DNA of 64,000 bases. It comes from Streptomyces sp. CA-278952 (GTDB taxonomy: Bacteria > Actinomycetota > Actinomycetes > Streptomycetales > Streptomycetaceae). A program made the position numbers and the translations under genes. Each line of letters opens with the position of its first letter. The stretch's first letter is position 1. Under the pieces are notes generated by a model, which was not told the DNA's origin, made no database searches, and saw nothing but the letters and a program-made list of their open reading frames with translations. The stretch is taken from positions 6,076,001-6,140,000 of the forward strand of contig NZ_CP112880.1 of assembly GCF_028747205.1 (NCBI RefSeq). Direction: 5' to 3'. This document shows positions 50,461 to 53,693 of the stretch, piece after piece.

Positions 50461-51240
50461 ATGCCACGTGATACGCCGTACTTGCAGGTGGCGGATGCTC
50501 TGCGGGCTCGTATCCGGGCCGGTGAATGGGCAGTGGGGGACAAGCTGCCGTCCCGGGCCCGGTTCGCGGAGGAGTACGGCGTCGGTCAGTCCGTGGCGCA
50601 GCGGGCCATGGAGCGCCTGATCATCGAGGGCATCCTCGAAGGTCGCGCCGGCTCCGGCACCTACGTCCGCCGGGCCCGAGAGCGCCGGCGCATGGTCCGC
50701 TCGCGCCACCGTGAGCAGCGCGGCAACAGCCCCTTCGTCTCGGACATGAGCGAGCTCGACCACGAGGCCGACTGGGAGTGCACCAGCACGGCACGCGTTC
50801 CCGCGCCGGAGGACATCGCCGAACGGCTGGCGATCGATCCCGGCGACCTCTGCGTCGTGACCGACTACGAGTTCCTCGCCGACGGCCTGCCCGTACAACT
50901 CGCCAAGAGCTGGGAGCCGATGGCCATCACCGACGGCACCCCGATCCTGCTCCCCGAGATGGGTCCGCACGGCAAGATCGGCGTTGTGGAGCGGATGCGG
51001 TCGATCGGCGTGAACATCGCCACCGGCATCGAGCTTCCCCGCCCGGCCCGCGCCACGCGGGAACAGGCGAATCTGCTCGGGATCACCATCGGTGACCTGG
51101 TCATCGAGGTGGAGCGCACGTACTTCGACCGCGAGGGGCGCCCCGTGGAGACGGCCGACATCATCGTGCCGGACATCCGCTGGGAGATCGCCTACGAGAT
51201 CCGCGTCGACCAGCCGGACTCCGACCAGCCGGACTCCTGA
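50461..51240 (+). CDS. GntR-family (HutC/UTRA) transcriptional regulator
   Basis: The 259-residue protein has an N-terminal winged helix (YLQVADALRARIRAGEWAVG and LPSRARFAEEYGV, SGTYVRR) and a UTRA-type effector domain. It probably represses itself and the divergent small gene. The ATG follows a CGGAG site. GntR proteins of this kind are common in Streptomyces integrative elements; no integrase or att site is visible here. Confidence 0.9.
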   Translation: MPRDTPYLQVADALRARIRAGEWAVGDKLPSRARFAEEYGVGQSVAQRAMERLIIEGILEGRAGSGTYVRRARERRRMVRSRHREQRGNSPFVSDMSELDHEADWECTSTARVPAPEDIAERLAIDPGDLCVVTDYEFLADGLPVQLAKSWEPMAITDGTPILLPEMGPHGKIGVVERMRSIGVNIATGIELPRPARATREQANLLGITIGDLVIEVERTYFDREGRPVETADIIVPDIRWEIAYEIRVDQPDSDQPDS

Positions 51241-51303: not shown

Positions 51304-51438
51304 TCAGGCCGTGATGACCGACGGCCCGGTGAACTCCGAGGCCAGCGCGTCCATCAGGAGTTCATCGCAGACCCCGCCGAGCCAGTAGCCCGCCTCAGTC
51401 GAGGACGCTTCTGTGGGTGCGGACGCCGGGGCCCGCAC
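51304..51438 (-). CDS. Possible 44-residue ORF downstream of the lasso precursor
   Basis: A GTG-started frame reads AGYWLGGVCDELLMDALASE in its middle. It begins inside the hairpin that follows the lasso-like precursor, has no ribosome site and could equally be a gene remnant. Recorded because it is the only open frame in the same direction directly after the precursor. Confidence 0.2.
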   Translation of the reverse strand: MRAPASAPTEASSTEAGYWLGGVCDELLMDALASEFTGPSVITA

Positions 51439-51444
51439 CCACAG
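51411..51444. terminator. Terminator hairpin right after the lasso-like precursor gene
   Basis: CTGTGGGTGCGG (51411-51422) and CCGCACCCACAG (51433-51444) form a perfect 12-base-pair stem with a ten-base loop, nine bases after the precursor stop on the minus strand. It implies that the precursor is transcribed alone, or that the hairpin limits read-through. Confidence 0.8.
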
Positions 51445-51452
51445 AGCAGGAA

Positions 51453-51587
51453 TTAGCTGTTGTAGGCGCGGCGCTTGTCCTCGCTCTGGCCGCCGCCCTG
51501 GCCCTCGGTGAGCACGGTCGCTTCACCGATCTCGACGGGGAGCAGGTCCATCTCGTCGGTGTGCTCCGTGGTCTGAAGCGGGTCCAT
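51453..51587 (-). CDS. Albusnodin-like lasso peptide precursor (orphan)
   Basis: This 44-residue gene has a strong AAGGAG site five bases before its ATG. Residues 1-28 read as a lasso leader: acidic, with LLPVEIGEATVLTE, a Thr at position -2 and Gly at +1, as in known precursors. The proposed core, G29-S44, is GQGGGQSEDKRRAYNS. Asp at core position 9 (or Glu at 8) could close the Gly1 isopeptide ring, and Lys10 would be the site acetylated in albusnodin. From memory the albusnodin core is the same except for a final Cys. No B-type protease, RRE protein, cyclase, acetyltransferase or dedicated transporter for it is seen in the window, so maturation genes, if present, lie elsewhere. It is flanked by a GntR regulator and an ATP-binding protein. 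Confidence 0.75.
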   Translation of the reverse strand: MDPLQTTEHTDEMDLLPVEIGEATVLTEGQGGGQSEDKRRAYNS

Positions 51588-51666: not shown

Positions 51667-52269
51667 TCAACCACCGCTGACGGCTGCCGGTTGTCCGGAC
51701 CTCGTACGGAAGAGGGGTCGGAAGGCGTTGCGGAACCGCTGGACGATGGCGTGCGGCGGGCCGAGACGGTCGAGGGCCCACCGTCGGCCCGTCTGCTCCC
51801 GGGGCAAGCTCAGCTCTGCCCAGACCCGCTTGCCCCGTACGGTGTTCTCGGCTCCGCAGGCGATCGACAGATGCTCGACCAGCACCATGCCTCGGCCGCT
51901 TTCGGAGTCAGGACTCGGGCAGCGGAGCCGGGGCAGGACTGGGGAGCTGTCGTGGACTTCGAGCAAGAGCCTGCTCTTGCCGAGATCCGCGCGCACGGTC
52001 ACGCTGAGCATGTCGCCGGTCCCGTGGGAGACGGCATTGGTGACCAGTTCCGAGACCACGGTGGTCATCGCCATGTGGCTGTCCTCGTCCTCGGGCAGGC
52101 GCCACGTGCTGACGAGTTCGACCAGCCGCCGACGGCTGATCGCCGCCGAGGCGCGGGCGCGGACCAAGAAGAAGCTTTGGCTGCTCACATGCCTCACGGA
52201 TAACCCTTCGTCTGAACATACGACCTGGACTCGAATGGGATGTCCGCCATCGGGAAAGGCTTGTTCCAT
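51667..52269 (-). CDS. HATPase (GHKL) anti-sigma-like ATP-binding protein
   Basis: The 200-residue protein has a GHKL-type ATPase fold: VVSELVTNAVSHG (N box) and SGRGMVLVEHLS (G box). Such small proteins in Streptomyces regulate sigma factors or partner XRE regulators. The start at 52269 is uncertain; the domain begins about 40 residues in. It is divergent from an XRE regulator gene and upstream of the lasso-like precursor on the same strand. Confidence 0.85.
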   Translation of the reverse strand: MEQAFPDGGHPIRVQVVCSDEGLSVRHVSSQSFFLVRARASAAISRRRLVELVSTWRLPEDEDSHMAMTTVVSELVTNAVSHGTGDMLSVTVRADLGKSRLLLEVHDSSPVLPRLRCPSPDSESGRGMVLVEHLSIACGAENTVRGKRVWAELSLPREQTGRRWALDRLGPPHAIVQRFRNAFRPLFRTRSGQPAAVSGG

Positions 52270-52415: not shown

Positions 52416-53693
52416 ATGATGGCACCGGATGGCATCGGGGCGCTGCTGAGGGGAAGCCGCGAAGCGGCTGGTCTGACGCGTGAGGAACAAGCGTCGGTGT
52501 TACAGGCTGCTCAGGGCGGGAAATGGTTCGACCCGGAGAACCTGAAGCGCTGGGAGACCGAACGACGTCTGCCCACACCGATGTGGCACGCGCTGTTGGC
52601 CGAGTGCTACGGCAGGTCCACGGAGGAAATCGTTCGTGCCGTTGTGGTCAGCCGACGCCATCGAAGGCTCCATCGGCTGATTGATCAAGAAAAGAGGGAG
52701 GAGGGCTCGGGAGTGGACCGACGGAAGTTCCTCGGCGTGGCAGCGGCGGTTACGGGAATGGCGGGAGTGCCGGACATCTCGGAGGCGCGGCAGGGGATCA
52801 ATGCGGGCCTGTTCGCCTCGGACGGTAGCGATCTCGCCTATCTGAACGGGGCATTCGAACGTCATCGCGGTGGATATCGGGGGCGTCCGCCCCATGAGGT
52901 GCTGGAGCAGATGAAAGTCGATCTCGACCTGCTGCGGGAGCTTCTCGGCCGCCCTCACCCGGCTGCGGTGCGCAAAGACCTGGCGCGCACGGCCGCTGGC
53001 ATCACCGGCTTGGTGGCTGTCATCCAGCATGATCGAGGCGAGCAGCGGGACGCGGTCGGCTGGTTCGCCACGGCCGAGCAGGCCGCTCGCGAATCCGGCG
53101 ATCGCCACATGCTCGCCTGGGTGCTCAGTCGGCACGCGATGGTGCCGCTGAACTACGGAGCCCCGAATGCCGCCGCTGCGATGGCCATGCGAGCGCGAGC
53201 CGAAGCCGGCCGGTCTCCGAGTGCTGCCGCTGCCTTGGCTGCGGCCGTGACCGCGAGGTCACTCGCCTCCGTCGGAGACCGGGAGGGAGCGCTGCGAGCG
53301 GTCGGTGACGCCCGCGCCACCGCGGCGCGACTCGATTCGGCGCAGGAGGCCGATACCTGGTTCGGCTACCCGCCGCAGAAGCACCACGTGCACCTTTCCC
53401 AGGCGTTCACGCTCATGGGGCGGACCCGCGAGGCGTATGCCGAGCAGGAGTCCGCACTCGCGCTCACCAAGGCTCCGTCCGTCATGACCCGCGCGCTGGT
53501 CGCCGTCGATCGCGCGGTCTGTGTCCGGGCGGACGGCGATCCGGCCACCGCGGCCGACCTCGCCCTCGATGTCTGGCGTCAGCTTCCCTCTGCCTACCGG
53601 GGCGGCTTGGTGCGCTCCCGGGTCGAGTCGTTGTGCCAGTCACTTCCCGGACGTACGGGGGACACGTTGCGCGAGGCACTGGCCAGCCGCTGA
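52416..53693 (+). CDS. XRE-family regulator with TPR-like C-terminal region
   Basis: The 425-residue protein has an N-terminal helix-turn-helix (IGALLRGSREAAGLTREEQA and LKRWETERRLPTP) and a long helical region with TPR-like repeats (for example AVGWFATAEQAARESGD). A twin-arginine-like string (DRRKFLGVAAAV) lies in the linker, but is not N-terminal. This class is common and usually paired with GHKL proteins as here. Target unknown. Confidence 0.85.
   Translation: MMAPDGIGALLRGSREAAGLTREEQASVLQAAQGGKWFDPENLKRWETERRLPTPMWHALLAECYGRSTEEIVRAVVVSRRHRRLHRLIDQEKREEGSGVDRRKFLGVAAAVTGMAGVPDISEARQGINAGLFASDGSDLAYLNGAFERHRGGYRGRPPHEVLEQMKVDLDLLRELLGRPHPAAVRKDLARTAAGITGLVAVIQHDRGEQRDAVGWFATAEQAARESGDRHMLAWVLSRHAMVPLNYGAPNAAAAMAMRARAEAGRSPSAAAALAAAVTARSLASVGDREGALRAVGDARATAARLDSAQEADTWFGYPPQKHHVHLSQAFTLMGRTREAYAEQESALALTKAPSVMTRALVAVDRAVCVRADGDPATAADLALDVWRQLPSAYRGGLVRSRVESLCQSLPGRTGDTLREALASR

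Follow-up and report, generated by a model that had tools for sequence, protein, structure and literature searches.

An orphan albusnodin-family lasso peptide precursor gene in Streptomyces sp. CA-278952 as the probable relic of a cluster deprived of its maturation genes

The closest described system to the gene considered here is the albusnodin cluster of Streptomyces albus DSM 41398 (albA, albB, albC, albT), whose precursor belongs to the same family. Two reviews give Lys10, a residue also found in the core described below, as the site of acetylation and place an acetyltransferase gene in the cluster (PMC9266682, PMC8498205). They describe the acetyltransferase as needed, or probably needed, to make albusnodin, which is reported there not to have been obtained without albT (PMC9266682, PMC8498205), and one of them mentions a C-terminal Cys in the peptide (PMC9266682). 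Among the titles listed in a literature search, none looked to be on point for orphan precursors of lasso peptides. The present gene lies in a 64,000-nucleotide stretch of the Streptomyces sp. CA-278952 chromosome (NZ_CP112880.1, positions 6,076,001 to 6,140,000), hereafter the window, and had been predicted to be an orphan encoding an albusnodin-like lasso peptide.

The precursor gene occupies 51453-51587 of the window, the interval originally predicted, and lies on the minus strand, which the prediction had not specified. It comprises 44 codons and a stop, with an AAGGAG 5' of the ATG, and its minus-strand translation (51587-51453), MDPLQTTEHTDEMDLLPVEIGEATVLTEGQGGGQSEDKRRAYNS, divides as anticipated into a leader of 28 residues (1-28) with Thr at position -2 and a 16-residue core (29-44), GQGGGQSEDKRRAYNS. 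The plus-strand reading of the same interval is stop-free, yet carries nothing of the precursor. In a profile search the peptide scored 72 bits (E 3.8e-20) against the NCBIfam family NF033525, "albusnodin family lasso peptide", for which the cut-off is 30 bits, and a protein search returned 33 related proteins at E <= 0.01 (34 candidates), the nearest of which, P0003, stands at 93%; the assignment to the albusnodin-like lasso precursors is thus borne out by profile and relatives alike. Thr at -2, Gly1, an acidic ring residue at 8/9 and Lys10, which we take to be albusnodin-family features, are all present in the window precursor and conserved in the alignment of it with the 33 proteins. In this alignment Thr at -2 is found in 34 of 34 rows and M1, G21, L26, T27, E28, G29, Q30, G31, S35-R40, Y42 and N43 are invariant, a degree of conservation that is overstated by a search preferring sequences with short words common to the query. 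Homology of the core to other lasso precursors, on which the original prediction had staked itself, is evident from the same first 15 core residues, GQGGGQSEDKRRAYN, in 26 of the 34 rows. The identical 16-mer ending in Ser occurs in 5 of 34 rows, that of the window included, whereas the family consensus has Cys at this position. We assume that the albusnodin core differs from that of the window in the last residue only, its first 15 residues being the same. Such a difference would fit both the consensus Cys and the C-terminal Cys mentioned in one review (PMC9266682). As judged from sequence, the window gene is a real albusnodin-family precursor, the resemblance being far beyond chance.

Upstream of the precursor lies an ATP-binding regulator gene (51667-52269, minus strand) with a weak RsbA-like match (31.2 bits, cut-off 210), followed by a divergent NsdA-family regulator gene (52416-53693, plus strand; 130.7 bits, cut-off 75). 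Both have counterparts beside the intact precursor-cyclase-B2-GNAT cluster of Streptomyces sp. SM11 (L013, NZ_NEUE01000009.1), that of the ATP-binding gene being likewise upstream of the cluster and that of the NsdA-family gene sharing 90.6% amino-acid identity. The other flank of the site is formed by a GntR-type regulator gene (50461-51240, plus strand), which matches no family over its cut-off and is kept in relatives with and without the cluster. In a tblastn search with the precursor, cyclase, B2 and GNAT proteins of a plasmid relative (L006, NZ_CP134205.1), the only match beside the precursor was to GNAT residues 152-180, at 51396-51310 on the same strand; neither an NF033561 cyclase nor a B2 protein gene was matched at the window locus. 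In place of a complete GNAT (albT) gene there is only its C-terminal part from residue 152 to the end (51304-51396, minus strand; stop codon 51306-51304), in a frame different from that of the precursor and 93% identical to the L013 GNAT over residues 152-180. The absence of any nearby acetyltransferase noted in the original prediction therefore has to be amended, since the tail of such a gene is present at 51396-51304.

The window and L013 are collinear on both sides of a single gap: window 52900-51397 aligns with L013 6687-8191 (86.5% over 1,508 aligned positions) and window 51396-50401 with L013 11199-12181 (89.8% over 998 aligned positions). Both BLAST blocks stop at the junction 51396/51397, 56 bp past the precursor stop codon, where L013 8192-11198 (3,007 bp) is absent; in L013 this segment holds the likely cyclase start (8207), the cyclase and B2 genes in full, and the first 151 codons of the GNAT gene. 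Inspection of the junction by eye revealed no clear microhomology of at least 3 bp. The possibility that the precursor arrived here on its own was rejected, because the GNAT tail stands in the correct place and order.

Between the precursor and the junction is a hairpin (51410-51445, minus strand; arms 51410-51427 and 51428-51445) that is collinear with L013. In intact clusters the hairpin sits between precursor and cyclase, where it may cause more precursor than enzyme to be made. Over 27 loci, among them the window, the first 75 bases past the precursor stop gave folding energies of -24 to -54 kcal/mol (no shuffled control), and a long hairpin was judged by eye to be present in 25, the exceptions being L007 and L028. 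The terminator of the original prediction is thus a real inverted repeat, but it does not indicate orphan status because a hairpin in the same place is shared by most related clusters, intact ones included.

The maturation genes are missing, the tail of one of them is left over, and an intact relative is collinear on both sides of the gap. We consider it very likely that the window gene is a relic of a complete albusnodin-type cluster whose maturation genes were deleted in one event of about 3 kb, and that its peptide probably goes unmatured. A complete cluster (precursor, hairpin, cyclase, B2 and GNAT) would once have stood between the NsdA-like/ATP-binding regulator pair and the GntR-type gene. 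A single deletion, beginning shortly before the cyclase start and ending at GNAT codon 152, would then have taken the maturation genes and spared the precursor gene, which is still intact, together with the tail of the GNAT. The precursor peptide is perhaps still transcribed and translated; with its cognate cyclase, protease and acetyltransferase gone it would probably not be turned into a lasso and be degraded, which, like the single-event loss itself, is a reading of the DNA, in this case of one genome of this species.

The strain genome is a single contig of 8,211,675 bases, rated 100% complete, and carries a single albusnodin-family precursor, the next match, at 4,917,418 (L012), being at chance level (E 0.28). 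In the genome-wide search for an albusnodin-type cyclase and GNAT that had been proposed along with the prediction, the best cyclase reached 226.6 bits to NF033561, short of the cut-off of 300, where the L013 cyclase scores 739 bits, and a second GNAT of the albusnodin type was not found. Eighteen GNAT matches were obtained at E <= 1, of which the best is the window tail (47.5 bits); the other 17 are weaker, at most 39% identity and 25.1 bits, and the runner-up combines 25.1 bits with 27% identity. With no cyclase or B2 match at the locus and no over-cut-off cyclase or second GNAT in the genome, the gene is indeed the orphan it was thought to be. The original prediction had left open whether it is processed by enzymes elsewhere or is a relic; the GNAT tail and the 3,007-bp gap speak strongly for the latter, and no enzyme over the cut-off was found for the former.

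Maturation in trans could nevertheless be envisaged through the lasso enzymes at 7.267 or 3.498 Mb or a lone cyclase-like protein at 4.257 Mb, given that the precursor is intact, that two further cyclase and B2 loci exist, and that the cyclases are distantly related to the albusnodin cyclase. PF13471 (B2) matches the genome twice, at 7.268 and 3.498 Mb, in each case adjoining an Asn_synthase-type cyclase, and these cyclases score 227 and 211 bits to NF033561, below the cut-off of 300. Each locus has beside it a candidate precursor of a different kind: MNGIYEPPMLQEIGDFDELTKCLGVGSCTDFVGCGYAVVCFW, presumably siamycin-like, at the 7.267-Mb locus, and MKPQKKAYVKPSLFKQGDFSKKTAGYFYGSYKEYWVRRIS, which ends an 84-codon frame whose start was chosen by us, at the 3.498-Mb locus. 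The lasso precursor of the 7.267-Mb locus, at 7,265,700-7,265,828 (L010 8700-8828), has a Cys-rich core, CLGVGSCTDFVGCGYAVVCFW, and stands ahead of the cyclase and B2 genes. The lone cyclase-like protein (4,257,166-4,259,205; L005 757-2796) scores 204 bits to NF033561 and has no B2-family match nearby. It is a core gene, being found in 39 of 41 Streptomyces genomes searched (E <= 1e-60), and it is hardly the partner of the precursor because the precursor family is rare, occurring in 21 of 392 genomes. The two other loci were likewise set aside as partners in view of their own candidate precursors of other kinds. All three cyclases lie under the cut-off of 300 and are about 30-35% identical to the L006 cyclase, and no albT-type GNAT is left in the genome. 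Maturation of the window precursor by any of them is very unlikely because neither a cyclase over the cut-off nor a second such GNAT was found in the genome and because the reviews report no product without albT (PMC9266682, PMC8498205).

What relatives carry at the same chromosomal site ranges from an intact cluster through a lone GNAT or a damaged one to nothing clearly recognisable. A 1,840-base site query found some match in 388 of 392 genomes, many of them weak and probably to paralogues of the GntR-type gene, and the comparison was made on 15 of the best-matching genomes (L115-L129), with protein matches taken at >40% identity and E <= 0.01. An open albusnodin-type GNAT frame (L115 3731-4267; 91% identity across residues 1-179) is found by itself between the flanks of G056 (L115), and the 12 kb surrounding it gave no match to precursor, cyclase or B2. 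G005 (L116) has a GNAT frame with an internal loss and a frame shift. No GNAT was found in L117-L124. In L117-L122 no more than about 90 bp separate the flank bearing the GntR-type gene from the flank that starts at window 53.6-53.7 kb (in our reading a TetR gene and an MFS transporter gene), and the cluster and the two regulators are absent. About 270 bp separate the flanks in L123 and about 2.8 kb of other DNA in L124, and in L125-L129 the matches are confined to the surroundings of the GntR-type gene. Short matches covering 21 residues of the cyclase in L117, 22 of B2 in L124 and 23 of the precursor (48%) in L116, the last falling inside the conserved flank, were judged to be chance. BLAST matches in L117, L118 and L124 extending as far as window 51360-51365 received no clear support from alignment as faint GNAT traces. 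In a 12-row tree of the far flank, from which L017 was left out and in which L013, filling only 17% of the columns, has no supported place, the window forms a group with G066 and G174 (support 100/99), as does G056 with G005 (100/99). By these comparisons the site appears to have held the cluster in several lineages and either lost it in several or exchanged it, neither course being favoured by the tree. Since G066 and G174, the closest relatives in the flanking tree, are without the cluster, the island may have come in by horizontal transfer, perhaps in an already broken state.

Decay of clusters with this core is not confined to the window. A locus was counted as complete when most of the cyclase, of the B2 protein and of the GNAT was matched by open frames. 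Of the 27 loci with the SEDKRR core that we compared (the window, L006, L007, L013-L034, L061 and L064), 24 could be judged, of which 19 are complete and 5, including the window, are broken, single frame shifts among the latter being explicable by errors in draft sequence. Not judged were L017 and L028, where the contig ends inside the cluster, and L033, with a run of N within the GNAT gene. All 27 loci were found through the precursor, so that loci devoid of one, the existence of which is shown by G056 and G005, are uncounted; the count also leaves out G435 and four of six plasmid matches. Among 20 further loci, 12 (L065-L076) were dropped before counting, as no precursor with this core was matched, and L057-L060, L062 and L063 were dropped as duplicates of the contigs of L015, L022, L028, L033, L024 and L026, respectively (600 mid-contig bases identical). 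The other broken loci are L031, with the cyclase start fused to the GNAT tail and no B2; L034, with the cyclase present in part only; L026, with an internal gap in the cyclase; and L064, with the GNAT split across frames and a shorter cyclase match. L031 (7989-8591) is a second relic, its precursor having an altered core, GQGCGQSEDKRRAYNC, and preceding the fused frame. In L034 (8001-9200), from Amycolatopsis rubida, the precursor is followed by a partial cyclase (residues 66-293), with no GNAT match. In L017 (8001-8909), from S. sindenensis, the precursor is frame shifted in the leader and the cyclase match ends at residue 235 near the contig end, for which draft errors are a possible cause.

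Divergence between the window and L013 bears on the age of the deletion. The GntR-type gene shows pS 0.20 and pN 0.032, and the ATP-binding gene, with pS 0.25 and pN 0.17, is therefore a fast-changing gene. In the 87 bases of the GNAT tail 3 changes are silent and 2 are replacements (pS 0.136, pN 0.031). Compared with the GNAT of L115, the tail shows 7 silent and 9 replacement changes, and the same part of the intact L013 gene shows 6 and 9. Since the dead tail looks no less conserved than a living gene, the deletion is likely to be young relative to the split from SM11, small as these numbers are. Precursor codons 1-15 carry 3 silent and 6 replacement changes, and codons 16-44 match L013 base for base, the chance of zero silent change being about 0.01 at pS 0.20. 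This is at most a hint that the precursor is still selected, and as the tail is also little changed, recency can explain both alike.

That albusnodin precursors in general outlive their enzymes through a retained use, as substrates in trans or in neighbouring cells, with the window, L031 and L034 as separate cases, has only a slim chance of being right. It is highly improbable that the bare precursor of the window is kept for a function of its own, as a signal or as a substrate for enzyme-bearing neighbours: the unchanged codons 16-44 and the precursors without a full enzyme set in L031 and L034 would be in keeping with such a function, but the L031 core is itself altered (GQGCGQ), reverse remnants with GNAT and no precursor also occur, and the GNAT tail is likewise preserved without evident use. 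An assembly error that conceals an intact cluster is scarcely credible, for although the evidence comes from a single assembly, this is one 8.21 Mb contig rated 100% complete, the stretch is without a run of N, neither an over-cut-off cyclase nor an additional GNAT piece lies elsewhere in it, and a similar loss is seen in L031.

A young relic of a deleted cluster is thus the reading we prefer, and the apparent orphan lasso gene is explained by a visible deletion scar. The site as a whole forms a small natural decay series, comprising complete cluster, precursor only, GNAT only, broken GNAT and absence, and cautions that genome mining by precursor only would score a dead cluster as a new product. 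Were the peptide made after all, enzymes acting in trans would have to mature it, and this in a family of lasso peptides presumed to need acetylation. What the window lacks relative to the albusnodin cluster is the cyclase gene, the B2 gene and the greater part of the GNAT gene. The SM11 locus has the same flanking NsdA-like, ATP-binding and GntR-type genes and the same 16-residue core, but retains the 3,007 bp in which cyclase, B2 and GNAT are encoded. The relic of Streptomyces sp. A1277 (L031) resembles the window in having kept the precursor and GNAT tail and lost B2 and most of the cyclase, but its deletion is a different one, which joined the start of the cyclase in frame to the GNAT tail, and its core has GQGCGQ. 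Set against these systems, the window gene is a member of the precursor family that, as a biosynthetic system, lacks what the family has and most likely no longer yields a lasso peptide.
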